A DNA stretch of 64,000 nt from Bifidobacterium breve. Its GTDB lineage: Bacteria; Actinomycetota; Actinomycetes; Nanopelagicales; Nanopelagicaceae. The DNA lies in NCBI GenBank assembly GCA_945863115.1, contig CAMAYZ010000001.1, positions 62,001-126,000 on the forward strand, read 5' to 3'. A model generated the notes under the pieces. It ran no database searches. It worked only from the letters and a program-made list of their open reading frames with translations, and was not told where the DNA came from. The position numbers and the translations under genes were made by a program. Position 1 is the stretch's first letter. Every line of letters begins with the position of its first letter. This document shows positions 11,874-29,772 of this stretch, piece by piece.

Positions 11874-13061
11874 ATGGCAACCGAATTAGAAGCTGCATTT
11901 AACAGCGCTGCGCAATTAATTTCAGATACTTCAAAGCTAGTTCGCATTGTGCTCTCGGGGCGGCGTCGAAATATGACGGTTCCTTTCGAGCGAATTGATA
12001 TTCGCCCAGTATTAATCAAAGGTGCAATCACGCTTCAGATTGCCCAAAATGATGGGCGAGTTACAACCACTAAAAATATTGAGGCTAAAGATTTTGATTC
12101 AAGCTCTTATCTTGAAATGGGTTATGCCAATATTTTGGTAGAGCACACATCAGGCGCACTTACGATTCGAATTACCAAGAAAGGCGAGGCTCAGGTTCAC
12201 GAAGAGAAGGGAGTTCGCGAACAGAACCTCGAACACGACCGTAAGAAAAGCAGGTTGCTAGATGCTTCAGATCCCTTTTTGATTGAAGTTGGGATTTCAG
12301 ATTCGCAAGGCCGAGTTAAGCCAACTAAGGCAGATAAATACCTGCAAGTTGAAGAGTTCCTACGGTTGCTTGTTCCAACCCTAAATGCGGCAATCGAGGC
12401 GAAACAAATTGCTAAGCCAACTGCTGACAAACCATTAGTGATTGCTGATCTTGGTTGCGGAAGTGCCTATTTAACCTTCGCAGTTCACCAATATTTAAAG
12501 AGCATAGATATGCCAGTGCATGTAATTGGAATTGATATTAGACCAGAATCTTTGAAGCGAAATAATGAGATTGCTAAGAAGCTCAAGATTGAAAAGTCGA
12601 TTGAATTCCGAGCGGAAGCGATCGATCAAACTTCGCTGACCTCTTGCGATGTTGCCATTGCTTTGCATGCTTGCGATACCGCGACTGATGATGCAATCGC
12701 TTGGGCGGTCACTGGCGGAGCGAAATTGTTGTTAATTGCACCATGCTGTCAGCATGATTTACAAACTCAGATGAGCCAAGTTCCAGAGCCGTGGAATATT
12801 CTTACAAAACATGGATTAATGAAAGAACGCCTTGGTGATTTAATGACAGATGCACTACGGGCTCAAATTCTTAAATTACTTGGGTATCGAACTGAAGTAA
12901 TTGAATTTATTGGCGGCGAACATACTCCTAGAAATATCATGATTCGGGCAGTTCTTACTAATGCTAAAGCAGATTCTAAGGATGCTGAAACTTATAAGAA
13001 GATGTTAAGTGATTGGCAGATCGATCCGGCGTTAGCAAGCAGAGTTAACTTAATTATTTAA
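11874..13061 (+). CDS. SAM-dependent methyltransferase (methyltransferase_32-like)
   Basis: 395 residues. The N-terminal ~150 residues are a separate domain (VRIVLSGRRRNMTVPFERID...). Residues ~190-330 are a class I Rossmann methyltransferase: SAM loop IADLGCGSAYLTFAVH, acidic residue at GIDIRPESLK, motif IV-like DVAIALHACDTATDDAI, and a conserved APCCQHDL. The last segment is typical of the methyltransferase_32 family, some members of which modify RNA or small molecules. It starts directly at the dapC stop (TAGATG). The substrate is unknown. Confidence 0.8.
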   Translation: MATELEAAFNSAAQLISDTSKLVRIVLSGRRRNMTVPFERIDIRPVLIKGAITLQIAQNDGRVTTTKNIEAKDFDSSSYLEMGYANILVEHTSGALTIRITKKGEAQVHEEKGVREQNLEHDRKKSRLLDASDPFLIEVGISDSQGRVKPTKADKYLQVEEFLRLLVPTLNAAIEAKQIAKPTADKPLVIADLGCGSAYLTFAVHQYLKSIDMPVHVIGIDIRPESLKRNNEIAKKLKIEKSIEFRAEAIDQTSLTSCDVAIALHACDTATDDAIAWAVTGGAKLLLIAPCCQHDLQTQMSQVPEPWNILTKHGLMKERLGDLMTDALRAQILKLLGYRTEVIEFIGGEHTPRNIMIRAVLTNAKADSKDAETYKKMLSDWQIDPALASRVNLII

Positions 13062-14217
13062 TTACCGTGTTATACATGCGGGATAACGAGAACTCATGAT
13101 GAAGTCCGCGCTCAGCCTTAGTTAATTTGCCATTTGCTACTTCTAAGATCAGATCAAATAGTTCGCCGCCAACTTCGGAAAGCGTCTTGACGCCATCGGC
13201 AATCGTGCCGGCATTTAGATCAATCAAATCTGGAATAGCTGTTGCCATAGTGGTATTTGTTGCAACTTTAATTGTTGGCATTATTGCTGAACCAGTTGGA
13301 GTTCCACGACCAGTTGTGAAAACAACAATGTTTATTCCAGCAGCCGCAAAGCCAGTTAGTTGTTCAGTGTCATGTCCAGGTGTATCCATAAAGTAAAGAC
13401 CAGACTTTGGAACTTGATCGGCATATTCCAGAACCCCAGAAAATTGTGCGCTTCCAGCTTTCTTCGCAGCACCAAGAGATTTTTCTTCTAGCGTGGTCAG
13501 TCCACCTTCAATATTGCCACGAGATGGTTGGGCGCCACGCATATCAATACCTTCATAATTAATTGATCGCTCATACCGTGCAACAGTTTCAATAATCTGT
13601 GCGCCAATTTCCGGAGTGATTGCACGTGCTGCTAATAAATGTTCGGCACCAAGAATTTCCGTTGTTTCACCTAATACCGATGCAGATCCAAGTTCTACCA
13701 ATCGATCACTTGCAACACCGAGTGCAGGATTAGCGGTTATGCCAGAAAGCGCATCAGAGCCACCACATTCTTGACCAAGTGTTAGTGCGCTCCAAGGAGC
13801 GCTGACACGTGATTGTGCCTTAGCTTCCTTTAGTAATGAATTTGCAAGCTTTAACCCAGCACCTGCAATCTTGCCCATAGAACCAAGTTCTGCAACATTT
13901 AATATCTCTGCCTTGTTAAGCCCCAATTTCTTAGCTAAATCAATTATCAATAATTCGCCAGGAGTTCCAATGGTTATGAATACAGTTGCGTAATTATTTG
14001 GATTTGCTGCAAAGCCGGAGAAAGTTTTAATAATGCGATCAAAATCTCCATCAACTTCGCCAGACCAATCGTGGCTGACTGCGACAGCTCCATCTGATTC
14101 ATCAGCTATTTTTCGAGCTGTTGCGGAAAGCGCAGAGTGCAACGGCAGAATCAACACGTGGCTTCGTAGCCCCCATCGTCCATCAGCGCGAGCGAAAGCC
14201 TTTAATTGATTAGACAC
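13054..14217 (-). CDS. UxaA/GarD-type sugar-acid dehydratase, large subunit A (CGGSD-bearing)
   Basis: 387 residues from a GTG start at 14217 that overlaps the stop of the upstream paralog. The track start at 14265 adds 16 unlikely residues. The C-terminal half carries the family signatures LGQECGGSDALSGITANPALG, GGLTTLEEKSLGAAKKAGS, FTTGRGTPTGSAIMPTIKV and LNAGTIADG. The N-terminal 'second domain' is degenerate: where active relatives have HxxGCG and VGLGCE, this one has SHDWSG and TIGTPGE. Size and domain set resemble SuyB-like large subunits that work with a small SAF partner. Altronate/galactarate-type dehydration is the family chemistry; the actual substrate is unknown. Confidence 0.8.
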   Translation of the reverse strand: MSNQLKAFARADGRWGLRSHVLILPLHSALSATARKIADESDGAVAVSHDWSGEVDGDFDRIIKTFSGFAANPNNYATVFITIGTPGELLIIDLAKKLGLNKAEILNVAELGSMGKIAGAGLKLANSLLKEAKAQSRVSAPWSALTLGQECGGSDALSGITANPALGVASDRLVELGSASVLGETTEILGAEHLLAARAITPEIGAQIIETVARYERSINYEGIDMRGAQPSRGNIEGGLTTLEEKSLGAAKKAGSAQFSGVLEYADQVPKSGLYFMDTPGHDTEQLTGFAAAGINIVVFTTGRGTPTGSAIMPTIKVATNTTMATAIPDLIDLNAGTIADGVKTLSEVGGELFDLILEVANGKLTKAERGLHHEFSLSRMYNTVIK

Positions 14218-15022
14218 TTCGAACCTCACGCCCAGCAATGATTTCACCGGCACCAATTGTTTCAACTTTAGTTAGTTCACCATTTATGACTGCGTAAATC
14301 TTCTCCATAATTTCTTCACTTGTTGCACCAGCGCTTAAATCAAAATCTTCAGTGAGTGCAAGATGTAGCGGCGAATTACTTGCAACGTTAATGGTTGGTA
14401 TCAATGGAAAACCAGATGCTGGCTGATTTGGATCTGGGAAGGAGAGAATTACATGAACGCCAGACTCCATCAAATCTGAGAAGTTCAGTCCAGAATTCTT
14501 ATGTGATGCGGCGACAGTTATATCCACACCAACATTGGTAAGTGCCGCAACTATTTCATCTACCTTTAAATCATCGTTCGATAAATCTATTCCTAGGTGC
14601 AATCTTGGAAGGACTACGGGTGTTGGTTGGTAATAAGCCTGTAGCGCTTTTGCTGCAGCAACTCCAGTGTCTACCGTTCCTTGCACACCGCCACTTTCTT
14701 GAGTTACCAAATAATTTGTAGATTTATTCTTAGCAAGCAACTTATCGGCTAATTCGTTACCTTGAATCGTTTCGCAACCAAGGCCTACAACAAGAGTGGA
14801 GCTAACATTTGGATGGTTCGCAAGTGCCGCGAAATATTCAGTGATTCGACCAACATCATTTCCAATGAAGCCACATCCATGTTGATGGGCAAAAGTTATT
14901 GCGCCAATTTCTTTTGCAATTCGACTAGATACCCGAGTTGAACAAACAACTGAAGGGAGAATCAATTGGTGATCGCGAACTCCAATTCCACGATTGCCGT
15001 GGTCAAAACCCTTCATACTCAT
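14210..15022 (-). CDS. UxaA/GarD-type large subunit B (GCG/GLGCE-bearing, internally shortened)
   Basis: 270 residues. The N-terminal part is an intact GD_AH second domain: GVRDHQLILPSVVCS, HQHGCGFIGND and LVVGLGCETIQGNE. The C-terminal part has only the beginning and end of the GD_AH_C domain. The LGxECGGSD motif has decayed to LGIDLSND, and the central ~120 residues are missing before FPLIPTINVASN and FDLSAG. It overlaps subunit A by 8 bp and the SAF gene by 4 bp. I read it as a paralog of subunit A that kept the opposite half of the conserved residues. It could instead be a decaying copy, but the frame is clean and the overlaps are tight. Confidence 0.75.
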   Translation of the reverse strand: MSMKGFDHGNRGIGVRDHQLILPSVVCSTRVSSRIAKEIGAITFAHQHGCGFIGNDVGRITEYFAALANHPNVSSTLVVGLGCETIQGNELADKLLAKNKSTNYLVTQESGGVQGTVDTGVAAAKALQAYYQPTPVVLPRLHLGIDLSNDDLKVDEIVAALTNVGVDITVAASHKNSGLNFSDLMESGVHVILSFPDPNQPASGFPLIPTINVASNSPLHLALTEDFDLSAGATSEEIMEKIYAVINGELTKVETIGAGEIIAGREVRSV

Positions 15023-15321
15023 TTCACTTGCTCCGTTGAAAGGCGATCGCCAAGAACATTGTGGGTGTGAACATGTTCGCCAATTTGGATATCGCTCGTT
15101 GCATGTCCCATACGTTCGCCGTATTTGATGATGCCTTCATCTTTAGAAATAGCTTTTGTAGCAACTTTATGGCCACGGGGAATTCGATTTTGTATAGTGA
15201 GATTTAGCGCATCTTGTCTGATGACTTCGCCAATATCCATATCCACGAGGCAGACGGCAATATTGTCTATCTCGTTTAGAATCAGGATTTTACGATTATT
15301 TAGCATGAGGATTCGAAGCAT
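15019..15321 (-). CDS. SAF-domain small subunit of the UxaA-type dehydratase
   Basis: About 100 residues from ATG 15321 (a second ATG lies at 15306). The track start at 15447 would run through the start of the divergent lldD gene and adds no family-like sequence. The protein matches the SAF domain that forms the N-terminus of UxaA/GarD: ILILNEIDNIAVCLVDMDIGE, IPRGHKVATKAISKDEGIIKYG and a C-terminal IQIGEHVHTHNVLGDRL, with the metal-site histidines in HVHTHN. In SuyAB-type enzymes this domain is also a separate small subunit. It overlaps subunit B by 4 bp (ATGA). Confidence 0.85.
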   Translation of the reverse strand: MLRILMLNNRKILILNEIDNIAVCLVDMDIGEVIRQDALNLTIQNRIPRGHKVATKAISKDEGIIKYGERMGHATSDIQIGEHVHTHNVLGDRLSTEQVK

Positions 15322-15355: not shown

Positions 15356-16585
15356 ATGGGCCAATTAAAAGTTAAACGCCGCTTTCCAGGGGTAAAAGAT
15401 TTGGCCGGATTAATGCGATTTCGCAAACCTATTTTTAATGGTCGCAAACGCCGATTATCTCGCGCTTTAACAATTTATGACTTGCGAGATATTGCTAAAC
15501 GTCGCACACCACAGGCTCCATTTGATTACACCGATGGCGGTGCTGATTCTGAATCGAGTTTAACTCGCGCACGTTCCACCTTCGAAAGAGTGGAATTCCA
15601 ACCAAGAATTCTCCGCGATGTTTCAGTTGTTGATACCTCAGTAAAAATGCTCGGACAAACCATGTCCATGCCAATTGGAATTGCACCAACAGGTTTTACT
15701 CGAATGATGCAGACCGAAGGCGAATATGCCGGTGCGACCGCGGCTCGTGATGCTGGAATTCCTTACACACTTTCAACCATGGGAACTCGTTCGATTGAAG
15801 ACGTTGCAAGAATTGCACCAGATGGTCGAAACTGGTTCCAGCTTTATATGTGGAAAGATCGCGATCGTTCAATGGCGCTAGTTGATCGCGCAAAAGCTGC
15901 AGGTTTCGATACCTTAGTTTTAACCGTGGATGTTCCAGTAGCAGGAGCCAGACTTCGCGATGTTAGAAATGGAATGACAATTCCGCCATCACTAACTTCA
16001 AAAACAATTTTGAATGCACTTCCTAGGCCAGCTTGGTGGATTAATTTTTTAACTACTGATTCTTTAAAGTTTGCCTCACTCGATAGCTGGAAGGGCACAG
16101 TTGCCGAACTTCTAGATTCAATGTTTGACCCAACTGTTACCTTTGAAGATTTAAAGTGGATTCGCAAGCAGTGGGATGGCAATCTCTTGGTAAAAGGAAT
16201 TCAAAACATTGATGATGCCGTGCTTGCACAAAAAGCTGGCGCAGATGCAATCTCACTTTCAAATCATGGTGGCCGACAATTAGATCGCGCCCCAGTGCCA
16301 TATCTATTGATTCCAGAAGCTCGCAAAGCACTCGGCAAAAAGTTCGAAATACATGCTGACACCGGAATTATGCACGGTGCAGATGTTGTTGCCTGCATTG
16401 CAGCCGGTGCTAATTTCACTTGGATTGGTCGCGCATATCTATATGGCCTAATGGCTGGCGGCAAAGAGGGCGTCGATCGCAGTCTGGAAATTCTGCGTAC
16501 CCAAATGGTTCGCACGATGAAACTACTTGGCGTTTGCTCACTTGAAGAGTTAAATCCATCGCATATTAAGTTGATTAACAAGTAG
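15356..16585 (+). CDS. lldD: FMN-dependent alpha-hydroxy-acid dehydrogenase (LldD family)
   Basis: 409 residues with the start context [16 protein letters not shown] like mycobacterial LldD2. FMN/TIM-barrel signatures: [14 protein letters not shown] at the N-terminus, [13 protein letters not shown], and the active-site [14 protein letters not shown] (catalytic His and Arg), followed by [20 protein letters not shown]. The family oxidises L-2-hydroxyacids (L-lactate most often) to 2-oxoacids at the membrane or with other acceptors. It is divergent from the SAF/UxaA genes and followed after 2 bp by a zinc dehydrogenase, so a sugar-derived hydroxyacid substrate is also possible. Confidence 0.9.
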
Positions 16586-18611: not shown

Positions 18612-19577
18612 ATGGAAAAATTACGTTGGGGATTTATCGGTGCTGGTGGAATTGCAAAGCGGGCGTTATATCCTGCGATATCTAAATCGAATGTTGGCGA
18701 AATTTACGCAGTTGCTTCACGCGATAAGACAAAAGCGCTAACCATCTCACCAAATGGAATTGTTTACACCAGCTATGACGAACTACTAGCTGACCCTAAA
18801 GTTGAAGCGGTCTATATCTCGCTTCCAAACTCACTTCACTTACCTTTAGCAATCAAAGCAATGCGTGCTGGTAAGCATGTTCTTTGCGAGAAGCCACTTG
18901 GTATGAATGCAGCAGAAGTTGCTGAAGCTATTGCAGTATCAGAAGAGACTAAGAGAATTTTTGTTGAAGCAAGTTGGAATCGCTGGCATCCACGTAGCCA
19001 AAGAATTAGAGAAGTTGTTGCTTCAGGCGAACTTGGAAAAATAACTCGCATCAGAACTTGCTTTACATATGACGGACTTGACGAAGGAAACATTCGCCTT
19101 GATCCAGCTCTAGGTGGCGGAATTCTTTATGACCTTGGTCCTTATTCAACAGTTGCACCACTTTGGGCAATGGACTTCGCTGAGATCTCAGATCTTGATG
19201 TGAAAGTAATCTGGCACAAAGCTGGAACCGATGAGACAACTCGTGTTAACTTCAATATCGGTGGCGCAGTTGCCGAGACTGTTGCATCTGACAATATTCA
19301 AGTGACTCACTGGTTCATTGTCGAAGGAACAAAGGGTGAACTTCGCACCGGTGGAAATGACTCCTTTAATTCACATAACAGCCCAAGCACCTTAGAAATT
19401 ACAGTTGATGGCAAGGCTCGAATCGAACGTTTTGAAGCCTGCGATCCATATCAATTAATGTCTGATGCATTTGCCCGCGTAGTCCGTGGTGGAAATGATT
19501 GGTTAATGCCGATGGAGCAATCACTTAAATTCGCTAAGTTCTTTGATGCGATCTTTGCGAAGATGGGCCGTCCTTAA
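18612..19577 (+). CDS. Gfo/Idh/MocA family oxidoreductase
   Basis: 321 residues. N-terminal Rossmann fold (WGFIGAGGIAKRALYPAI), the EKP motif in GKHVLCEKPLGMNAAEV, and a C-terminal beta-sheet domain (DLGPYSTVAPLWAM). These NAD(P) enzymes oxidise or reduce sugars and inositol derivatives. The closest look is the xylose/dihydrodiol-dehydrogenase-type branch rather than IolG. It is last in the lldD-led unit, and its stop overlaps the 3' end of convergent iolB by 4 bp. Confidence 0.87.
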   Translation: MEKLRWGFIGAGGIAKRALYPAISKSNVGEIYAVASRDKTKALTISPNGIVYTSYDELLADPKVEAVYISLPNSLHLPLAIKAMRAGKHVLCEKPLGMNAAEVAEAIAVSEETKRIFVEASWNRWHPRSQRIREVVASGELGKITRIRTCFTYDGLDEGNIRLDPALGGGILYDLGPYSTVAPLWAMDFAEISDLDVKVIWHKAGTDETTRVNFNIGGAVAETVASDNIQVTHWFIVEGTKGELRTGGNDSFNSHNSPSTLEITVDGKARIERFEACDPYQLMSDAFARVVRGGNDWLMPMEQSLKFAKFFDAIFAKMGRP

Positions 19578-20473
19578 TTATTTAAGTAAGGCAGCCTTGG
19601 ATCGATATCTTTTTCGTTCCAGGTTTTACGAATCCAACCTTGTGCTGGATCATCAGTGATATTCCACGAGCGATCTGGATCTGGCCCGGCCATTACATTC
19701 ATAAAATAAAGATCGTAACCAGGTTGTGCCATGACCGGCCCATGCCAACCATGTGGAACCAGAATTACATCACCGCTTCTAACTTCGGTTGTTAAATCAA
19801 ATTCGCGTTCATCAGAGGCGCGGCCTTGAAAGAAGCCAACTGGATCTGTGTTCTCTTGTGCCGGCAAGTTCTTACTTACGGCAGCTTCGAAGTAATAAAT
19901 TTCTTCTAAGTTTGATTCGATGCCAGGGATATAGGTGTCATGTTTATGTGCAGGGGAGCCAGACCAATTTCCGGCAGGAACAAGAATTTCAACAACGATA
20001 AAGCGATCAGCTGCAAGTTCGGATGGGTCACCAAAATTATGAACTTGGCGAGAAGCTGGACCAGCACCACGGGCAAAGACCGGAACGCTTTTCACTGGAA
20101 TGTATTTATCTGGAAATGAATTCTTTGCTGGTGCCTCGGCAATAATGAAACGTCCGGTTCCAGATATCTTTATTGAAGTATCGATTGAAAGATAAAGAAC
20201 ATCAGTTGGACCGCTAAATACAGTTTCACGTCCTACAAGCTTCTGGCTTTTTGTTTCGCCATTTACAACATAATCAACAACAATGCCTTCGCCTTCAAGT
20301 GGCCAAATTAATCGCTCAACTTTGTCGGCAGCGATCTCAAAAGTTTTACCAGGAGAAAGTGTGGCAACTCTTGTGCCGGTGTGCTTCCAACCAGGAAGTT
20401 TGTCGTTGACGATTACATCCCAATCGCCGGACGCGAGTTCACCCTTTTTGTAGAAATAGCGGGGTTTACTCAT
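19574..20473 (-). CDS. iolB: 5-deoxy-glucuronate isomerase IolB
   Basis: A 299-residue bicupin of the KduI/IolB family. The metal site is visible as PAHKHDT, SNLEEIYYFEA and the late HGWHGPVM. The N-terminus (YFYKKGELASGDWDV) and the C-terminal WNITDDPAQGWIRKTW also fit. IolB isomerises 5-deoxy-D-glucuronate to 2-deoxy-5-keto-D-gluconate in myo-inositol breakdown. It is divergent from the main iol operon across a 107-bp gap that holds a candidate LacI operator (20518-20531), so both directions may share control. Confidence 0.92.
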   Translation of the reverse strand: MSKPRYFYKKGELASGDWDVIVNDKLPGWKHTGTRVATLSPGKTFEIAADKVERLIWPLEGEGIVVDYVVNGETKSQKLVGRETVFSGPTDVLYLSIDTSIKISGTGRFIIAEAPAKNSFPDKYIPVKSVPVFARGAGPASRQVHNFGDPSELAADRFIVVEILVPAGNWSGSPAHKHDTYIPGIESNLEEIYYFEAAVSKNLPAQENTDPVGFFQGRASDEREFDLTTEVRSGDVILVPHGWHGPVMAQPGYDLYFMNVMAGPDPDRSWNITDDPAQGWIRKTWNEKDIDPRLPYLNN

Positions 20474-20517
20474 GGGCCAATTCTCTCTTGAAACATTCCT
20501 AAATTGCGGCTATTGTT

Positions 20518-20531
20518 TTGGAGCGGTCCAA
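20518..20531. promoter_or_regulatory. Candidate LacI-family operator between iolB and the iol operon
   Basis: TTGGAGCGGTCCAA: perfect 5-bp arms TTGGA/TCCAA around a central GCGG. LacI-family operators are short palindromes with a central CG, and the cluster's own LacI gene is the second gene of the downstream operon. It lies 45 bp from the iolB start and 50 bp from the SDR start. I found no second copy by eye elsewhere in the cluster. Confidence 0.45.
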
Positions 20532-20580
20532 TCCTAACAGTGGAGCGCAACTATTTACTAGGGGAATTGGGTTTAAAACA

Positions 20581-21552
20581 ATGGCCAAGATTGCAGTGAC
20601 CGGATCCAATGGATTCGTTGGAGGCAATATTGCAAATATGTTGCTGGCTGCTGGTCACGAAGTAATTGGATTAGTTCGAAGCCAACCAGAAAAAACTCTG
20701 CCTTGGAAAACTACCGTTACAGATTTATCGAGCATTGCTTCAATTGCCGAAGCTACAAAAAGTTGTGCCGCAATTGTTCACAGCGGCATCGCAAATGATT
20801 TCAATAAATTACAACAAAATCGGGAATATGCATATGACTCATTTGTTGGTCTGACTCAAAGAGTCACACATGCGGCAAATAACAATGGCGCCCAGATTAT
20901 TTATATTTCAACTGGTTGGGTCATGGATGGCGCTGGCCACATGGCGCTGGAAAGCGATACCGGAAATCCAGTTAATTTCTATGGCGTTCTAAAATCTTTA
21001 GGTGAACAAGTGATTCGCGATTTGGCACCAGACACTGGTGTCATCGCAAGAGTCGATGGTGTTATGGGAATTCATCAGACTTTAGAAGTTGGACCACGAA
21101 CTCAAGATGTTGGCTTTGGATATTTCGCATCTGCTTTAGTTGCAGATTTAAAAGCTGGAAAAACCTTTACAGTATTTGGTGGCGAATTAGTAAATAAAGT
21201 AACCGCTCCTTCACTCGCCTCAGAAATTGGTGTGCAAGTCGAGCGAATTGTTTCGCGAAAAGCGCACGGGACTTTCCACCTTGTTGGCGATGATGCAATT
21301 AACAGAATGGATTACGCAAGACTGATCTGTGAAATTTTTGAATTAGATGCAACCTTGCTTCGGGAAGCCCCACCTTCTATCGAGGATCAATTCCCAGGGC
21401 AAGTGCCAGTTGACACTTCGCTCTCGAATATTGCAACTAAAAAAGCACTCGGTATTGGGCCAACTTCACTCCGCGATTTACTTGTTGCACTACGGACTGA
21501 GATTGATACCGGAAAGATAACTGCAATTACTAAGCCAGAGGTATTCGCATGA
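20581..21552 (+). CDS. NAD(P)-dependent SDR/epimerase-family oxidoreductase
   Basis: About 323 residues from ATG 20581 (the track's 20518 start lies over the candidate operator and adds 21 non-conserved residues). Extended SDR features: GSNGFVGGNIANMLLAAGHEV nucleotide loop, ISTGWVMDG, and YGVLK active-site Tyr/Lys. It resembles RmlD/epimerase-type enzymes. It is the first gene of a ~9-kb operon; its stop overlaps the lacI start (ATGA). The substrate is unknown, presumably a sugar or cyclitol intermediate. Confidence 0.8.
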   Translation: MAKIAVTGSNGFVGGNIANMLLAAGHEVIGLVRSQPEKTLPWKTTVTDLSSIASIAEATKSCAAIVHSGIANDFNKLQQNREYAYDSFVGLTQRVTHAANNNGAQIIYISTGWVMDGAGHMALESDTGNPVNFYGVLKSLGEQVIRDLAPDTGVIARVDGVMGIHQTLEVGPRTQDVGFGYFASALVADLKAGKTFTVFGGELVNKVTAPSLASEIGVQVERIVSRKAHGTFHLVGDDAINRMDYARLICEIFELDATLLREAPPSIEDQFPGQVPVDTSLSNIATKKALGIGPTSLRDLLVALRTEIDTGKITAITKPEVFA

Positions 21553-22568
21553 CAACAACAGCAAAAACAAAGCGCCCTACAATTAGAGATGTTGCAGCAA
21601 AAGCTGGGGTATCAAAATCCTTAGTTTCACTTGTGTTTTCAGCTCCACAAACAGTTAGTAGTTATCGAAAAGATTTAGTATTAAAGGCAGCTGACGAACT
21701 TGGTTTTTCGCCAAACTTTTTAGCGAGATCTTTAGCAGCCGAGACTGGAACATTTATTGGAATCTTGGTTGCTGATTTACATAACCCGCTCTTCGCTCAA
21801 ATTGTTGATCAAGTTCGGGTCGCTCTAGAGGCCGAAGGTGAATACAGTTTCATGACATCTGCGATGCTACTTAATTCGCAAGGCGAACAAATTCTTGATT
21901 CCAGAACTGTAAGCGCGCTAATTGATCTTCGCCCTAAAAGTGTTTTAGTAGTTGGCTCTGTTCCAGATATGCATCGTCTCTCTTCATTGCCTGAGACTGT
22001 TGCTATTGTTATCGCAAGCGCGATTTCGAAAGATATTGCGCGTGCAACGACCGTACGTTCAAATGACGAAATAGGAATGCGCCTCTTGATTGAACACCTT
22101 GTGGAAAATGGACATCAGAAGATTGCCCATATTTGTGTTGAAGCTGGTGACGTATCAAAGAGCCGTAGAAATGCTTACGAGTCAGCGATGAAAGAAAAAG
22201 GCCTAGCAAAGTTTATAAATGTTGAGTTTGCAAAGAGCGCTACCGAGATCGATGGTTTCGAAGCGGCTACTAAGTTGATGAATTCAAAAAATCCACCGAC
22301 TGCAATCACCGCATTTAACGACTTGTTAGCTATCGGGGCACAGGGTGCAACCGATGGCACGATTGCAATCACAGGATATGACAACACTTTCCTAGCTGAC
22401 TTAAAGCAAATTTCCCTAACATCAGTCGATCCAGGCAATACCGAAATTGCAAATAAAGCTGCAGAGCTATTGTTGAACAAAGACAGTAATCAAAAGGCAA
22501 AAACTTTCCTCATGGAACCAAAGCTAGTTGTAAGAAATTCTTCCAAATCTCTAGTTAGGAATAATTAA
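21549..22568 (+). CDS. LacI family transcriptional regulator
   Basis: 339 residues. The N-terminal LacI helix-turn-helix and hinge are clear: TIRDVAAKAGVSKSLVSLVF and ADELGFSPNFLARSLA. The periplasmic-binding-like effector domain follows (GILVADLHNPLFAQIVDQV; ITGYDNTFLADLKQISLTSV). It probably represses the iol/sugar-acid genes when inducer is absent; the inducer is unknown. Position inside the operon implies autoregulation through the site at 20518-20531 (inference). It is followed by the aldehyde dehydrogenase with no gap. Confidence 0.93.
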   Translation: MTTTAKTKRPTIRDVAAKAGVSKSLVSLVFSAPQTVSSYRKDLVLKAADELGFSPNFLARSLAAETGTFIGILVADLHNPLFAQIVDQVRVALEAEGEYSFMTSAMLLNSQGEQILDSRTVSALIDLRPKSVLVVGSVPDMHRLSSLPETVAIVIASAISKDIARATTVRSNDEIGMRLLIEHLVENGHQKIAHICVEAGDVSKSRRNAYESAMKEKGLAKFINVEFAKSATEIDGFEAATKLMNSKNPPTAITAFNDLLAIGAQGATDGTIAITGYDNTFLADLKQISLTSVDPGNTEIANKAAELLLNKDSNQKAKTFLMEPKLVVRNSSKSLVRNN

Positions 22569-23960
22569 ATGACCCTTGAAGATATTAAGTCACCATTCGA
22601 CGGATCAGTTATTGGCCAAGTGCCCGTCGCATCTCTTAAAGATGTAGATGGATATTTATCTCGCGCCGAGATTGGTGCCAAGCTTTGGCGAAATACCCCA
22701 GCCCATGTGCGCAGTGCAATCATTCTGAAGGCAGCTGCAATTGCCGAAGAGAATATTGAAGAGTTGGCTCAAATAATTTCAGGGGAAACTGGAAAAAGTC
22801 TTTTGGAAGCCCGTGCTGAAGCATCTAGATGCGGTGAGATTTTCCGACTGTCCTCATTTGAAGGTTCGCAGCTTTATGGTTCAACGCTGCCACTTGATGC
22901 AAATAAGGGAACCGGCCTTGAAAAATTAGGTTTCACAATGCGCCAACCAGTAGGAATCGTTGTTGCCATTAGCCCTTTTAATTACCCAGGCTTATTGGTT
23001 CTCCACAAAATTGGTCCAGCACTTGCAGTGGGAAATGCTGTTGTTCTAAAGCCGGCAAGAACTACGCCACTAACAGCTTTTGCGATTGCAAAGTATTTGA
23101 AAGAAGCTGGATTACCAGATGGTGTTCTGCAAGTAATTACAGGTTCAGGTTCAGTTCTCGGAGATGCTTTAGTTTCAGACCCAAGAGTTAGAAAAGTATC
23201 TTTTACTGGTTCAACAATCACCGGAACACATATTGCTTCAGTAGCTGGCGCAAAAAAGTTGTCACTTGAACTTGGTTCATCCTGCCCAGTAATTGTTATG
23301 GATGATGCAGATATTGATTATGCCGCCGATGCAATTGCGTTAGGTGGATATATAAATGCCGGACAGGTATGTATCTCAGTGCAACGTGTAATTGTTCACG
23401 AGAAAGTTATGGCTAATTTCTTAGATGCACTTAAGCCAAGAGTCGAAGCGATAAAAGTGGGCGATCCAAAGAGCGCTGATACTAAAGTCGGAACTCTGAT
23501 CTCAGAAGCCGAAGCAATTCGGGTTGAAAAATCTATTGCTGCGGCAGTAAGTGAAGGCGCAACGCTATTAACCGGCGGCGCCCGAACTGGCGCAATTGTT
23601 AAGCCAGCAATTGTTTGTGGCGTAAATCCAAAGTCTGCGTTCGCGCAAGATGAATTATTTGGTCCGGCAATTGCAGTGAGTTCAACAACTGGAATTACCG
23701 ATGCGATTTCGATTGCAAATGATTCACCTTATGGGCTTGGCGCAGGTGTATTCACTAAGAATATGGATAATTCAATTCAAGCCGCACGCGAACTTGATGC
23801 TGGAAGTATTCACATTAATTGGACTCCACTCTGGCGTGCAGACTTGATGCCATATGGCGGACTCAAATCAAGTGGAATTGGCAAAGAGGGCGTTCGCTCA
23901 ACAGTAAATGAAATGACCGAAGAAAAATCCATAATCCTTCACGGACGCAGCTGGCTATAA
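22569..23960 (+). CDS. NAD(P)-dependent aldehyde dehydrogenase
   Basis: 463 residues of the non-CoA ALDH superfamily. Cofactor and catalytic segments: ISPFNYPGLLVLHKIGPALA, the FTGST loop, the general base in LELGSSCPV, and the nucleophilic Cys in NAGQVCIS. The pattern (SIHINWTPLWRADLMPYGG) is near lactaldehyde/glycolaldehyde/semialdehyde dehydrogenases. It lacks clear marks of IolA, the CoA-acylating methylmalonate-semialdehyde enzyme. In context it could oxidise an aldehyde released by the HpcH-type aldolase or malonate semialdehyde. Confidence 0.88.
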   Translation: MTLEDIKSPFDGSVIGQVPVASLKDVDGYLSRAEIGAKLWRNTPAHVRSAIILKAAAIAEENIEELAQIISGETGKSLLEARAEASRCGEIFRLSSFEGSQLYGSTLPLDANKGTGLEKLGFTMRQPVGIVVAISPFNYPGLLVLHKIGPALAVGNAVVLKPARTTPLTAFAIAKYLKEAGLPDGVLQVITGSGSVLGDALVSDPRVRKVSFTGSTITGTHIASVAGAKKLSLELGSSCPVIVMDDADIDYAADAIALGGYINAGQVCISVQRVIVHEKVMANFLDALKPRVEAIKVGDPKSADTKVGTLISEAEAIRVEKSIAAAVSEGATLLTGGARTGAIVKPAIVCGVNPKSAFAQDELFGPAIAVSSTTGITDAISIANDSPYGLGAGVFTKNMDNSIQAARELDAGSIHINWTPLWRADLMPYGGLKSSGIGKEGVRSTVNEMTEEKSIILHGRSWL

Positions 23961-23974
23961 AAGAGGAGCATGAA

Positions 23975-25939
23975 ATGACAAATCCAAATTACGGAGCAAC
24001 CGAAAAGCTAACTGTGGGACAAGCAGTTGTCCGTTTTATCGCGGCACAGCACACAGTTGCTGACGGTGTTAAACGTCGTTTCATCCCAGCAGCAATGGGA
24101 ATTTTCGGGCACGGAAATGTTGCCGGTCTTGGTCAAGCACTTGATCAATACAACGACATTCTTCCCTTCGTTCAAGGGCGTAATGAACAAGGTTTAACCC
24201 ATGCCGCAATTGGTTTTGCAAAGGCAACAAACCGCAATCAAACATTTGCAGTTACTGCATCAATTGGGCCCGGTGCACTAAATATGGTTACAGCTGCTGG
24301 ACTTGCAACTGTTAATCATTTACCAGTTCTCTTACTTCCAGGTGATTCATACACAACACGTCGTCAAGGCCCAGTTCTGCAACAGTTAGAACATCCACTC
24401 GGACCAGATATCTCAGTCAACGATGCATTTCGCCCGATTGCAAAATTCTTTGATCGCATTACTAGACCAGAACAACTTCTTTACTCGCTTCCAAACGCAT
24501 TTAGAGTCCTAGCAAATCCAGCAGAAACCGGAGCAGTTGTTCTTGCGCTGCCACAAGATGTGCAATCACATGCCTTTGATTTCCCTAAAGAATTCTTCGA
24601 AGAGCGAATCTGGAAGATCCGTCGCGCAATTCCTGATCGTGAAGATATTGGTCAAGTTGCGAAGATGATTAAGGAATCCAAGAAGCCACTGATTATTGCT
24701 GGTGGCGGAATTAATTATTCCTCTGCAACCGCCGAACTTGAAGCTTTTGCAAATGCAACCGGAATTCCAGTTTCTGAAACCTTCGGCGGCAAAGGTGTAG
24801 TTCAAAACCCAGGGGATTGGCACCTAATGGGCCTTGGTCTTGAAGGTTCACCAGAGACAAATAAGTTAGTTGCTGAAGCAGATCTAATCATTTCAATTGG
24901 CACTCGCTTATCCGACTTTGCAACCGGTTCACAATCGATGTTCCAAAACCCGAACGTTAAGTTCGCATCAATAAATATTAAAGAACATGATGCAATCAAG
25001 CAGGGCGCAGTAGCGATTCTTGGAGATGCGAAGCTCTCATTAGTTGCACTAACTGAAGCTGTTGCTGGTTACAAAATTCCATCCGATTGGGCTACCAAGA
25101 TATCTGCTGGAACAAAAATTTGGGCGAAGCAATTGGCCGAAGCTATTGATCCCGATGTGGTTTTCGATAAGAAGACACTTCCTGATTCACCAGTAACAAA
25201 TGCAGTTATCACACAGGGGCAATTAATTGGATTAATGAATGAGACCGCAAAGAGCGGAGATGTAATTATTGCTGCAGCAGGTGGCGCACCTGGTGACATT
25301 CAAAAAGCTTGGGATGCAACTAAAGGTAAGTTCGCACATCTGGAATTTGGATTTTCTTGCATGGGTTATGAAATTCCTGCCGGTATCGGAGTTCGCCTTG
25401 CAACACCAGATCAATCAAAGCGAGTTCTAGTTTTTATCGGTGACGGAACTTTTGTTATGGCCCCAACTGAATTAGTTACGGCTGCTCAAGAAGGCATAAA
25501 CATGACAGTTGTTGTTTCGGAGAATCATGGATACCAAGTTATTCGCAGACTTCAAATGTGGCGGGTAGGAAATCACTTCGGAAATGAATTCAGATACCGC
25601 CAAGAAGGCCCTTCAGTTGCCGAAGCCGGAAGTCTTAAAGGAACTGCGCCAAGACTTGAGGGCGATTACTTAGATATAGATTTAATTAAGATGTCTGAAG
25701 GAATGGGTGCAAAAGCTATTTATGCAACCACTCCAACGGAAATTCGTAGCGCGCTTGCAGAAGCCCGCACAATTAATGGACCAGTTGTAATCGTTGTTCC
25801 AACAATTCAACATGCGAATCTGCCAGCATCAAATGTTTGGTGGGATGTTGCGCCAGCAGAAGTTTCAACCCAACCTTGGGTTGCTGCTATCCGAAGTGAT
25901 TATGAAGCTGGTCTTTCAACTCAGAGATGGCATGCGTAA
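23975..25939 (+). CDS. iolD: 3D-(3,5/4)-trihydroxycyclohexane-1,2-dione hydrolase IolD
   Basis: A 654-residue thiamine-diphosphate enzyme with a strong AGAGGAG-type RBS. Three-domain ThDP layout: PYR domain with FVQGRNEQGLTHAAIGFAK (catalytic Glu), central domain (KKPLIIAGGGINYSSA), and PP domain with the GDG...N-type motif (VFIGDGTFVMAPTELVTAAQ). Length and N-terminal VRFIAAQHTVADGVKRRF are typical for IolD, which hydrolytically opens the inositol-derived ring to 5-deoxy-glucuronate, the IolB substrate. This gene anchors the inositol interpretation. Confidence 0.95.
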   Translation: MTNPNYGATEKLTVGQAVVRFIAAQHTVADGVKRRFIPAAMGIFGHGNVAGLGQALDQYNDILPFVQGRNEQGLTHAAIGFAKATNRNQTFAVTASIGPGALNMVTAAGLATVNHLPVLLLPGDSYTTRRQGPVLQQLEHPLGPDISVNDAFRPIAKFFDRITRPEQLLYSLPNAFRVLANPAETGAVVLALPQDVQSHAFDFPKEFFEERIWKIRRAIPDREDIGQVAKMIKESKKPLIIAGGGINYSSATAELEAFANATGIPVSETFGGKGVVQNPGDWHLMGLGLEGSPETNKLVAEADLIISIGTRLSDFATGSQSMFQNPNVKFASINIKEHDAIKQGAVAILGDAKLSLVALTEAVAGYKIPSDWATKISAGTKIWAKQLAEAIDPDVVFDKKTLPDSPVTNAVITQGQLIGLMNETAKSGDVIIAAAGGAPGDIQKAWDATKGKFAHLEFGFSCMGYEIPAGIGVRLATPDQSKRVLVFIGDGTFVMAPTELVTAAQEGINMTVVVSENHGYQVIRRLQMWRVGNHFGNEFRYRQEGPSVAEAGSLKGTAPRLEGDYLDIDLIKMSEGMGAKAIYATTPTEIRSALAEARTINGPVVIVVPTIQHANLPASNVWWDVAPAEVSTQPWVAAIRSDYEAGLSTQRWHA

Positions 25940-26679
25940 TGCATAAATTTACTGATCCAAACCAAGTAACCATCGGAACTTTTCTCGGCATGGGCGCTCC
26001 TATGTCAGCAGAAATTGCTGCAGTGGGGGGAGTCGATTGGGTCCTTGTTGATTTAGAACATGGTGGCGCCGGTGAAGATGTAGTTGGGCCAACTGTTGTT
26101 GCAGGAATGGCTTACGGAATTCCAACGTTAGTTCGCGTTGAATCATCAGAGCGAATTCGAATCGGACGAGCACTTGATGCTGGTGCAAGCGGTGTAATGA
26201 TTCCAAGAATTGAAACTCCGGAACAAGTTAGCGCTGTTGTAAAACATATGTCATACCCACCATTTGGTGATCGTGGCGTCGCTACATACAATCGAAGTGC
26301 AAAGTGGGGACGCGACTTATCTGGCTTAACCCAGAAAGCTAAAGCTGCCTGCATCATTCAAATTGAAACTTTAAAGGCGCTAGAAAATGTAGAAGCAATA
26401 GCTGCAATCGAAGGCGCAGATCTCTTGTTCGTTGGACCACTCGATTTAAGTTTTGCGCTCGGGGTTCCTCGTGATTTCAAGAGTCCAATCTTTATCGAAG
26501 CATGTTCAAAGGTAATCGCAGCCGCTGACGCAAATAAGAAAGTTGCTGGAATTCTGGCTGCTGATTCTGCGGCGGCAACTGCTTTTATCGAACTTGGATT
26601 TAAATTCATCGCAATCGGTTCCGATGCAACTCTGCTTGCTGGTGCAATCACAAGCCTTGTAACCCAACTAAAGAAATAA
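25939..26679 (+). CDS. HpcH/HpaI-family aldolase
   Basis: About 246 residues from the ATG at 25939 that overlaps the iolD stop (TAATG); the track's 25927 start is four codons upstream. HpcH/HpaI TIM-barrel signatures: VLVDLEHGGAGEDVVG, VRVES, VMIPRIETPEQV, IIQIETLKALENV and DLLFVGPLDLSFALG. These Mg/Mn enzymes cleave 2-keto-3-deoxy sugar acids to pyruvate (or a derivative) plus an aldehyde. That is the logical step after a UxaA-type dehydratase, and it is chemically unlike the IolJ reaction. Confidence 0.88.
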   Translation: MHKFTDPNQVTIGTFLGMGAPMSAEIAAVGGVDWVLVDLEHGGAGEDVVGPTVVAGMAYGIPTLVRVESSERIRIGRALDAGASGVMIPRIETPEQVSAVVKHMSYPPFGDRGVATYNRSAKWGRDLSGLTQKAKAACIIQIETLKALENVEAIAAIEGADLLFVGPLDLSFALGVPRDFKSPIFIEACSKVIAAADANKKVAGILAADSAAATAFIELGFKFIAIGSDATLLAGAITSLVTQLKK

Positions 26680-26687
26680 GGAAACAA

Positions 26688-27908
26688 ATGTCTGCAGCAG
26701 TTCCTAATCGCACAGTTGGTGTTGGCTTAATCAGTGTTGGCTGGATGGGAAAAGTGCACTCTCGTGCCTACCAATCACTTCCAATTGTTTACCCAGAACT
26801 TGGCATCAAGCCAAGGCTGATCATCGCTGCCGATAATGTGCAAGAGCGCGCTGACTATGCAGTAAATGTTCTTGGTTATGAGACTTCTACTCTGGATTAC
26901 AAAGAAGTCCTGGCCCATCCCGATGTCGATGTAGTTTCAATCTGTGCACCAAACTTTCTGCATGCTGAGATTGGTATTGCTGCCGCGAAAGCTGGCAAGT
27001 CTTTCTGGATTGAAAAGCCAGTAGGACGTGGTGCAACCGAAACTGAAGCGGTAGAAGCAGCAGCAATTGCAGCAGGAGTAACTACAACCATTGGGTTTAA
27101 CTATCGAAATGCACCTGCAGTTGAACATGCTAAACATTTAATTGAAAGTGGCGCACTTGGTCGCATCACAAATATTCGTGGCACTTTCTTTGCAGATTAT
27201 TCAGCTGAACCAAATGGCGCACTCTCTTGGCGCTTCATCCGTAAGTTTGCGGGCAGTGGCGTTCTTGGCGATCTGATGGGTCACTTAGCTGATCTAGTTC
27301 AATATTTAGTTGGGCCAATTTCAGAGGTAAGTGGAATGACTAAAACAATTATTACGCAGCGCCCAGTATTGGAAATGGGAACTGGAACGCACTTCGCAGT
27401 AATCGAAGGCGGAAAGATGGAACCTGTTGAGAACGAAGATTATGCGGGTGCACTAATTCGCTTTGCAGATAGCGCTGTTGCAGCAGGAGCTGTCGGAACA
27501 ATCGAAGCTTCTCGTGTTGCTGTCGGACCACGCGCGAGTTATAACTTTGAAATTTACGGAACCGAAGGTTCAATTAAATGGGACTTCGAACGAATGAATG
27601 AAATAGAAATTGCTATTGGTCGCAAGGGCGAACATGTTGGATATCAACGCGTTATGGCATCACCAGCTTTTGGGGACTTCGGAAACTTCCAGCCAGGCGC
27701 CGGAACTTCAATGGGCTATGACGATTTGAAGATTGTGGAAGCTCGCAAATTTCTTGAAGCATATTTCGGTGGACCAGCAAAGAATTCAAATATCCATGAC
27801 GCGGTATCTGCAGCACGCGTTGTGTCCGGTATTGAAGAATCTGCAGAATCAAAGAAGTGGGTTCCAATCAAACCTGTGACCGGAACTACGGCGGCTATCA
27901 GAAAATAA
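26688..27908 (+). CDS. Gfo/Idh/MocA family oxidoreductase (long, 406 aa)
   Basis: 406 residues with RBS AAGGAAAC before ATG. Rossmann loop variant GVGLISVGWMGKVHSRAYQS, the EKP motif in FWIEKPVGRGATETEAV, the catalytic-region FNYRNAPAVEHAKHLI, and GDLMGHLADLVQYLVG. The longer C-terminal domain is like enzymes acting on inositol or glucoside derivatives. The exact reaction is unknown. It sits between the aldolase and a D-2-hydroxyacid dehydrogenase in the iol operon. Confidence 0.88.
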   Translation: MSAAVPNRTVGVGLISVGWMGKVHSRAYQSLPIVYPELGIKPRLIIAADNVQERADYAVNVLGYETSTLDYKEVLAHPDVDVVSICAPNFLHAEIGIAAAKAGKSFWIEKPVGRGATETEAVEAAAIAAGVTTTIGFNYRNAPAVEHAKHLIESGALGRITNIRGTFFADYSAEPNGALSWRFIRKFAGSGVLGDLMGHLADLVQYLVGPISEVSGMTKTIITQRPVLEMGTGTHFAVIEGGKMEPVENEDYAGALIRFADSAVAAGAVGTIEASRVAVGPRASYNFEIYGTEGSIKWDFERMNEIEIAIGRKGEHVGYQRVMASPAFGDFGNFQPGAGTSMGYDDLKIVEARKFLEAYFGGPAKNSNIHDAVSAARVVSGIEESAESKKWVPIKPVTGTTAAIRK

Positions 27909-28873
27909 TGAGCACCAGTTCAATTCCAGTAATTGTTGGCCTAGGGCCAATATCAAGTGAGATAGTCGCGCCTATTTTGGGTTCGCAATTTACTTATATT
28001 GAAAATCCAACACCGCAAGATTTAGCAATTGCTGAAGGTGCAATAGTTCGAGCCGCATTCGAATTTAATAAATCTGTTTTTGAATCCATGCCAAATCTAA
28101 AAGTAATTGCGCGTACTGGTGTCGGAACCGAATTAGTTGATTTGGACGAAGCCGATGTTCGAAACATCCCGGTCGTTGTTACCCCCGGAAGCAATACCAA
28201 TGCAGTTGCAGAGGGCGTATTTGCTCAGATTCTGCATTTATCAAAGCGTCTTGGTCCGCTGACTAAATTAGTCGCAACCGGAAAATGGAATCAGCGAACA
28301 GATTATCCAGTTGGAGATTTAGCGAATCAAACTTTAGGAATTATTGGTTATGGTCGCATCGGTGCCCAGGTTGCAAAAATCGCAACAGCTTTTGATTTGA
28401 AAGTAATTGCCTTTGATCCATTTGCTGAAATTCCAACCTCACTTAAAGCAGATTCGCTATCTCAGATATTTGTAGAATCAGATGTCATAACTCTTCATGT
28501 TCCGCTAACTCCAGAGACAACCGGAATGATTGGCAAGTCAGAACTTGATTCCATTAAAACCGGAACCATTTTGATCAACTGTTCTCGAGGTGCGCTGATT
28601 GATTTAGATGCGGCTCTCGCTGCACTAAATACCGGAAAACTTGGCGGACTTGGTTTAGATGTATTTGATCCCGAACCACCAAAACATCATCCAATTTTTG
28701 ATCACGAAAACGTTGTTCTAACTCCACATGTAATGGGGCTAAGTAATCAAGCAACGGTCGCGACATATGTGATGGCAGCAGAAGGCGCCCGCGATGTTCT
28801 AACTGGAGTTAAACCAAAAGCAATAGCTAATCTAAAAAATAACCAAAATAATCAAGACAGGAGCACCAAATGA
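27908..28873 (+). CDS. D-2-hydroxyacid dehydrogenase (SerA/phosphoglycerate dehydrogenase-like)
   Basis: About 321 residues from ATG 27908, overlapping the previous stop (TAATG); the track start at 27857 is inside the preceding gene. NAD loop: LGIIGYGRIGAQVAKIATAF then acidic FDPF. Catalytic Arg in INCSRGALIDLDAALAAL, Glu in FDPEPPKHHP, His in LTPHVMGLS. There is no C-terminal ACT domain, so it is a short form. It likely interconverts a 2-oxo and D-2-hydroxy sugar acid in this cluster rather than making serine (inference). Confidence 0.87.
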   Translation: MSTSSIPVIVGLGPISSEIVAPILGSQFTYIENPTPQDLAIAEGAIVRAAFEFNKSVFESMPNLKVIARTGVGTELVDLDEADVRNIPVVVTPGSNTNAVAEGVFAQILHLSKRLGPLTKLVATGKWNQRTDYPVGDLANQTLGIIGYGRIGAQVAKIATAFDLKVIAFDPFAEIPTSLKADSLSQIFVESDVITLHVPLTPETTGMIGKSELDSIKTGTILINCSRGALIDLDAALAALNTGKLGGLGLDVFDPEPPKHHPIFDHENVVLTPHVMGLSNQATVATYVMAAEGARDVLTGVKPKAIANLKNNQNNQDRSTK

Positions 28874-29772
28874 GTGCAAAAAACGCAAAGATCGCAGCAG
28901 CACCTATTTCATGGGGAGTTTGCGAAGTTCCAGGTTGGGGACATCAAATGTCGCCCGAAAGAGTTTTAAAGGAGATGGCAGAACTCGGATTCAGTGCAAC
29001 TGAATTCGGTCCTGAAGGATTCTTACCAATGGAACCAGCACTCAAGGCTTCTATTCTTAAAGAACATAACATGACTGCAGTAGGTGGCTTTGTTCCAGTT
29101 ATTTTGCACCGTGCCGATCACGATCCAATTCCAGGTGTTCAAAAAGAACTTGAAGGATATGTTGCTGCTGGCGCAAAGACTTTAGTTCTTGCGGCGAATT
29201 CTGGAATCACCGGATACGATGAAAAGCTTCCAGTTTTGACCGATGCTGAGTGGGATATTTTGTTTAATAATCTCAATCGCATTCAGGCCGAAGCGGCAAA
29301 GATTGGCGTGAAGTCAGTGCTGCACCCTCACGTTGGAACTATGGTTGAAACTGCTGATCATGTAAACCGAGTTGTTAAAGGTTCAACAATTCCATTCTGT
29401 TTAGATACCGGTCACATGATGATTGGTGGCACAGATATCGTCGCATTCTCAAAGGATCACGCAGATCGCGTTGCGCATTCACATCTTAAAGATGTAAACA
29501 ACGCAATGGCAGCAAAAGTTCGCTCACATGAAGTTACTTACTATGACGGAATGTTGGCCGGCCTTTACACACCACTTGGCCAAGGCGACGCAAATATTCG
29601 CGCCGTTGTTCGTAACTTGGTAATGGCTGGATATGAAGGTTGGTTTGTTCTCGAACAAGACAACGCATTAAGCGCAGAGCCAGCAATCGGAGCCGGCCCA
29701 TTTAAAGATGCAAAAGCTAGTGTGGAATTCCTTCGCCAAGTTCTTGCAGAACTAGTTAGCGAAGGTTTCTAA
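28870..29772 (+). CDS. iolE: Inosose dehydratase IolE (TIM-barrel)
   Basis: 300 residues of the sugar isomerase/endonuclease-IV-like TIM barrel. N-terminal AAAPISWGVCEVPGWGHQMSP is characteristic of IolE. Metal-site residues appear in SVLHPHVGTMVET, FCLDTGHMMIGG, AHSHLKDVN and GWFVLEQD. IolE dehydrates 2-keto-myo-inositol (inosose) to the dione cleaved by IolD. It overlaps the preceding gene by ATGA and is the last gene of the operon, 4 bp from convergent iolG. Confidence 0.88.
   Translation: MSAKNAKIAAAPISWGVCEVPGWGHQMSPERVLKEMAELGFSATEFGPEGFLPMEPALKASILKEHNMTAVGGFVPVILHRADHDPIPGVQKELEGYVAAGAKTLVLAANSGITGYDEKLPVLTDAEWDILFNNLNRIQAEAAKIGVKSVLHPHVGTMVETADHVNRVVKGSTIPFCLDTGHMMIGGTDIVAFSKDHADRVAHSHLKDVNNAMAAKVRSHEVTYYDGMLAGLYTPLGQGDANIRAVVRNLVMAGYEGWFVLEQDNALSAEPAIGAGPFKDAKASVEFLRQVLAELVSEGF

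Follow-up and report, generated by a model that had tools for sequence, protein, structure and literature searches.

The window analysed here, a stretch of 64,000 nucleotides from contig CAMAYZ010000001.1 (positions 62,001 to 126,000 of the forward strand; assembly GCA_945863115.1, filed as Bifidobacterium breve with a Nanopelagicaceae lineage), carries on its minus strand three overlapping genes that, judged by their sequences, represent a variant of the UxaA/GarD-type dehydratases encoded by three genes, in which the two large subunits, named A and B in the following, are reciprocally incomplete. Together with a small SAF protein, A and B probably constitute an iron-dependent dehydratase of sugar acids whose active site is composite and lies where A and B meet. 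Since each large subunit keeps only that half of the active site that its partner has lost, it is very probable that neither functions without the other. The trio is laid out as follows:

15019..15321, minus strand: SAF subunit, 100 amino acids, a stand-alone counterpart of the N-terminal domain of UxaA (Pfam PF08666, E 2.3e-8)
14210..15022, minus strand: subunit B, 270 amino acids, ATG start at 15022; intact GD_AH_second domain with three conserved Cys plus a reduced C-domain remnant
14210..14217, minus strand: B/A overlap of 8 nucleotides, GTGTCTAA, with the GTG start of A inside the last codons of B
13054..14217, minus strand: subunit A, 387 amino acids, GTG start at 14217; intact GD_AH_C domain, second domain without Cys

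On the minus strand the genes are read in the order SAF, B and A; the SAF frame starts at 15321 or about 15306 and overlaps B by 4 nucleotides. The 8-nucleotide B/A overlap is common to most loci of the genus and likely leads to translational coupling. A preliminary description of this DNA had recognized an SAF gene overlapping with two paralogs of 270 and 387 residues; all three open reading frames lie on the minus strand where it had placed them, and the motifs that it quoted for the two paralogs are exact. B reads LPSVVC, HQHGCG, GLGCE and LGIDLSND, and A reads PLHSA, SHDWSG, TIGTPGE and LGQECGGSD.

The three domains of the UxaA/GarD superfamily (COG2721), SAF, GD_AH_second and GD_AH_C, are complete over the trio and in no single chain. 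Pfam detects GD_AH_second (1e-12) and GD_AH_C (1e-93) in A; in B it finds GD_AH_second (3e-27) and a partial, sub-threshold match to GD_AH_C (profile positions 136-236, 2.6e-5). No NCBIfam model fits B, and the GarD equivalog TIGR03248 scores 231 bits on A, 20 on B and 38 on SAF, all below its curated cut-off of 730.85. B had originally been described as lacking the central region. More precisely, it has lost about 85 amino acids of the C-domain, including every active-site residue of that domain, and B is consequently to be viewed as a strongly reduced paralog and not as a protein merely missing a central piece.

Our case for a divided active site starts from an alignment of 32 intact UxaA/GarD-type large subunits (including UxaA and GarD from E. 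coli) with 21 A and 21 B proteins, in which we scored the 65 positions that are at least 93% conserved in the intact enzymes and counted a position as kept when it is retained in at least 90% of A or of B (numbering of E. coli UxaA). By this measure, 59 of the 65 positions are kept in A, in B, or in both. Nine second-domain positions (C132, G165, C166, L197, G198, C199, E200, Q225 and G227) are kept by B only, at 100%; in A, G198 is found in 81% of the proteins and the others in 0-29%. Conversely, 37 positions of the C-domain, among them C264 with the adjoining GGSD, N276, E297, E300, N347, K358, K365 and D395, are kept by A only, and the set comprising CGGSD, N347, K358, K365, D395 and others is present in 100% of A and absent from B. 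The remaining positions are kept by both (nine), belong to the second domain and are kept by A only (four), or fall below 90% in both proteins (six). This split, which bears out the complementary motif loss noticed in the preliminary description, is fixed in all 21 aligned A/B pairs, three very distant pairs included, and exceeds what chance would give. Its key codons in the window are:

14942..14944, minus strand: B Cys27 (LPSVVC; UxaA C132), found in 21/21 B, 0/21 A and 32/32 intact enzymes
14873..14875, minus strand: B Cys50 (HQHGCG; UxaA C166), found in 21/21 B, 0/21 A and 32/32 intact enzymes
14771..14776, minus strand: B Cys83-Glu84 (GLGCE; UxaA C199-E200), Cys in 21/21 B and 0/21 A, Glu in 21/21 B and 4/21 A, both in 32/32 intact enzymes
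14699..14701, minus strand: B Gln108 (QESGG; UxaA Q225), found in 21/21 B and 0/21 A
13765..13767, minus strand: A Cys151 (LGQECGGSD; UxaA C264), the proposed fourth ligand, found in 21/21 A, 0/21 B and 32/32 intact enzymes

Four Cys residues are conserved throughout the superfamily except in sulfolactate sulfo-lyase, and electron paramagnetic resonance (EPR) data led to the proposal that they are ligands of ferric iron (Watanabe et al., 2019; PMC6336799). When we matched the Cys residues of the trio to these four by motif in our alignment, the proposed ligands were found divided into three on B and one on A, as the second-domain set is kept in B and the C-domain set in A; neither chain alone has all four. 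We infer a physical complex with a composite metal site, and likewise the reaction and the substrate. B would supply the second-domain half, which comprises the Glu of GLGCE, the Gln of QESGG and the three Cys; the C-domain half would come from A, whose CGGSD carries the fourth Cys and which also keeps conserved Asn, Lys, Asp and Glu; and SAF would be the customary N-terminal domain, here on a chain of its own. In the resulting pseudo-dimer of A and B, one composite site would be intact, and the other, made up of the second domain of A and the C-domain remnant of B, would be dead and structural. Catalysis would proceed by iron-assisted abstraction of the α-proton and β-elimination to a 2-keto-3-deoxy sugar acid. 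We lean slightly toward the reading that the two chains of a pseudo-symmetric heterodimer share a mononuclear iron site in this 3 + 1 fashion and that the second site is dead. The same slight leaning applies to this reading as a whole, in which a homo-oligomeric dehydratase became an obligate heteromer through reciprocal loss of active-site halves, a state long kept in at least two actinobacterial lineages.

The distribution of the two proteins is that of partners. B profile matches occur in 49 of 296 Nanopelagicales genomes, and true A proteins (A profile, E < 1e-100) occur in the identical 49 (Fisher 3e-57, for genomes that are not independent); neither B without A nor A without B, the patterns by which the preliminary description had proposed to judge the pairing, was seen among them. 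The order SAF-B-A is present in all 45 full B-carrying loci, a further locus being cut by a contig end, and the layout recurs in dozens of independently assembled genomes, including the complete chromosome CP015606 of strain IMCC26077, which belongs to a lineage with a UxaC-linked trio. Outside the Nanopelagicales, three genomes of a distant actinobacterial family, f57 (L134/L046, L165 and L166), carry the genes in the order B-A, and their motifs are split in the same way. In other Actinomycetota, SAF is paired with an intact large subunit (L137, L138), or there is just one chain (L139-L141). A tblastn search of plasmids with B retrieved ordinary UxaA-family proteins only, none covering 80% of B, and in the open-access literature we did not find a three-gene version of the UxaA/GarD dehydratase.

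A weaker A-like match alone (E ~1e-82 for most) is present in 62 more genomes. We rejected these as cases of A without B: the nine loci examined contain pairs of SAF and a 386-amino-acid protein resembling SuyB, the large subunit of (2R)-sulfolactate sulfo-lyase, and no B. Such SAF plus SuyB-like pairs, devoid of the second-domain Cys and with the motif CGESD, are common in Nanopelagicaceae (L127-L133, L135, L136; 62 genomes by profile match) and possibly represent sulfolactate sulfo-lyase or another lyase. Likewise rejected was locus L061 (genome G454) as a natural fission; its second domain and C-domain lie in mutually interrupting frames, as after a frameshift, probably a sequencing or assembly error. 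Five further loci (L122-L126; genomes G282, G178, G279, G179 and G310) hold another B-like paralog of about 350-380 amino acids, in which the active-site Cys are partly or entirely lost and which has an extra C-terminal part. It directly follows an enolase-superfamily (MR_MLE) gene in L200, apparent sugar ABC transporter genes adjoin in L200-L202, and it may have evolved from this dehydratase family into a sensor or pseudoenzyme. Three metagenome bins titled 'Bifidobacterium breve' (L076, L099 and L109; CAMCPZ010000008, CAMDBB010000004 and CAMAPN010000017) carry Nanopelagicales-type loci, and their titles look wrong.

All three genes of the trio are under strong purifying selection. The median ratio of nonsynonymous to synonymous substitution rates (dN/dS) within the genus is 0.10 for SAF, 0.066 for B and 0.030 for A, and B proteins are 57-95% identical there; the constraint on B that the preliminary description had suggested measuring is thus evident, and it extends to A and SAF. 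Even the seemingly dead halves are constrained (0.023 for the second domain of A, from which the metal residues are gone, and 0.053 for the reduced rest of B), which presumably reflects a role in structure or at the interface. These values also speak to the explanation that the trio is an artefact, arising from decay or a frameshift in one gene or from faulty assembly. Such a frameshift does exist in one reference genome, the above-mentioned L061; against this stand the same layout in dozens of independent assemblies including CP015606, the open frames, and dN/dS ratios well below 1. The chance of an artefact is therefore negligible, the conserved layout having already refuted it.

In phylogenetic trees, A is monophyletic across both lineages (bootstrap 99-100), as is B (92), and the Nanopelagicales and f57 members divide identically in the A and the B tree. 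The A and B distance matrices correlate with r = 0.95 (mirror-tree, 44 loci; reached by 0 of 1000 Mantel shuffles), as expected from co-inheritance. In the tree of the second domain, A joins the SuyB-like group with 77% support, and A and B are not sisters; the grouping of A with SuyB-like proteins may result from long-branch attraction. Hence, from the earlier proposal that A and B subfunctionalised after a duplication, the complementary loss stands, but the direct duplication of one ancestor is not proven by these trees.

The grouping of A with SuyB-like proteins in this tree would fit another explanation, namely that A and SAF are active on their own in the manner of SuyAB, with no need for the Cys triplet, and that B is a regulatory or structural pseudo-subunit. 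SuyB-like SAF plus large-subunit pairs without the Cys do exist in sister genomes, and SuyAB itself also lacks these Cys in published work. However, A keeps all CGGSD-type residues of the C-domain, eight of which the SuyB-like group has lost; B keeps exactly the catalytic and metal residues in 21 of 21 cases, which a scaffold would not require; and B is never missing where A is present. We therefore regard this explanation as unlikely.

Structure prediction gives a mixed picture. AlphaFold2 folds B alone with high confidence (predicted local distance difference test, pLDDT, 90.9; predicted template modeling score, pTM, 0.89). Sequence searches of the PDB returned E. coli GarD (6u7l) as the only relative of A and no relative of B. 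A fused B-A model was obtained from the read-through of L093, where only one stop separates B from A in the same frame, by folding it together with 13 further rows; the mixed B plus A rows were misaligned in MAFFT, which limited the depth of the alignment. The best PDB match of this model is GarD (E 6e-19, TM 0.56 of target), for a model that is of low confidence in the active-site loops. GarD is reportedly a dimer with its second domain at the interface, an arrangement that would fit a site shared between chains.

The confident folding of B on its own bears on two further alternatives. B could be an iron-binding accessory for iron delivery, redox protection or sensing that has its own three-Cys site and loads or guards A. 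It is a small protein with three conserved Cys that is predicted to fold well alone, and UxaA-type enzymes are iron-dependent (PMC6336799). Yet E200, Q225 and G227, invariants that are not ligands, are likewise kept in B, together with the PN motif found in the second domain of the intact enzyme, and A lacks exactly these, PN excepted; such an accessory role is, in our judgment, quite improbable. Alternatively, A and B could be independent enzymes, with successive or different substrates, that merely share an operon, a notion compatible with the predicted independent folding of B and with the fact that adjacency alone is no proof of a complex. Since each protein lacks half of the conserved active site, and since the two co-occur strictly one to one, in fixed order and with overlapping frames, we deem this very improbable.

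Several points nevertheless weigh against the composite dehydratase that we favor. That four Cys ligate iron in the intact enzymes has itself been proposed on the basis of sequence conservation and EPR and not of an iron-bound structure. A fold search of the PDB with B alone gave no match at E<0.001, GarD included, and the fused B-A model reaches a pLDDT of only 72.8 and a pTM of 0.54, its HxxGCG and CGGSD loops falling below 50. The figure for the co-occurrence of A and B is inflated by linkage and shared ancestry. Overall, the support for a composite site comes from sequence, distribution and selection.

If our reading is correct, the trio would be a clean natural case in which an enzyme with a single large subunit turned into an obligate heteromer through reciprocal loss of active-site halves. 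The split would also offer a direct test of which residues hold the iron in this family: with A and B separate, the second-domain Cys triplet and the Cys of CGGSD must meet, and the metal site should thus be rebuildable by mixing two pure proteins. It further predicts a sugar-acid catabolic step in abundant, streamlined freshwater actinobacteria, in which standard annotation would score such genes as broken or duplicated UxaA.

The neighbors of the trio are genes for sugar-acid catabolism. At many Nanopelagicales loci it adjoins UxaC (glucuronate isomerase) and a reductase of the mannitol-dehydrogenase family that resembles fructuronate/tagaturonate reductases, and altronate is consequently the likely substrate there. 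Beside such UxaC/reductase genes lies a conserved open reading frame region (cluster 8, 14 loci; for example L107:9008-10246 and L110:10782-11849) without a Pfam match, which may represent a gene that has escaped recognition or an incorrect choice of frame. At other loci, the trio is found beside a rhamnulokinase-like kinase and a class II aldolase, or after an FAH-family hydrolase close to 2,4-didehydro-3-deoxy-L-rhamnonate hydrolase. In the window, its divergent neighbor is:

15356..16585, plus strand: flavin mononucleotide (FMN)-dependent (S)-lactate dehydrogenase-type oxidase (Pfam FMN_dh 4e-127; NCBIfam PRK11197 and LldD below cut-off)

This type of oxidase is a recurrent neighbor of the trio in the window's genus, and in many genomes two Zn-alcohol dehydrogenases also lie beside it. 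UxaC is absent from the genome of the window (an assembly that is 93.5% complete), so that altronate is an unlikely substrate in this organism; its genome does encode an FAH hydrolase that is 64% identical to one preceding the trio elsewhere. It is a reasonable guess that the substrate in this lineage is a 6-deoxy acid such as L-fuconate, which would finally be cleaved to pyruvate and L-lactate. Adjacent in the window (19574-29772) lies a block resembling inositol catabolism, mostly judged from sequence, with IolB-like, LacI regulator, aldehyde dehydrogenase, IolD-like, HpaI-type aldolase, Gfo/Idh/MocA and IolE-like genes.

Among known systems, UxaA (D-altronate dehydratase) and GarD (galactarate dehydratase; PDB 6U7L) share with the trio, when its members are summed, the same three domains, the four Cys and the CGGSD and GLGCE motifs; they are, however, single chains with all motifs, whereas the trio comprises three chains, and two of these, both reduced paralogs, share the motif sets between them. 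The combination of SAF with one large subunit, as in L137/L138 and in the annotated Campylobacter proteins Cj0482/Cj0483 (88 + 389 amino acids; PMC9100392), resembles the trio in the separate SAF gene directly upstream. In contrast to the trio, L137/L138 have a single large subunit of about 388 amino acids with all four Cys (checked in these two) and no B-type protein. The L-fuconate dehydratase of Paraburkholderia mimosarum (A19U_RS0100650/655; PMC6336799), compared by description only, is heteromeric and belongs to the same superfamily but is encoded by two genes. SuyAB, with its SAF-type SuyA and its large subunit SuyB, is likewise heteromeric; it is without the four-Cys set (PMC6336799), and its large subunit lacks the second-domain Cys, as does A. 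It has neither a Cys-carrying partner nor a third subunit, whereas B always accompanies A. The aligned SuyB-like proteins read CGESD where A reads CGGSD, and their group has lost G266, A275, N276, G280, L308, S359, P392 and D395. As A keeps all eight of these residues, its C-domain still conforms to what is seen in the iron-type dehydratases, which is the outcome to be expected if A receives its missing half in trans.

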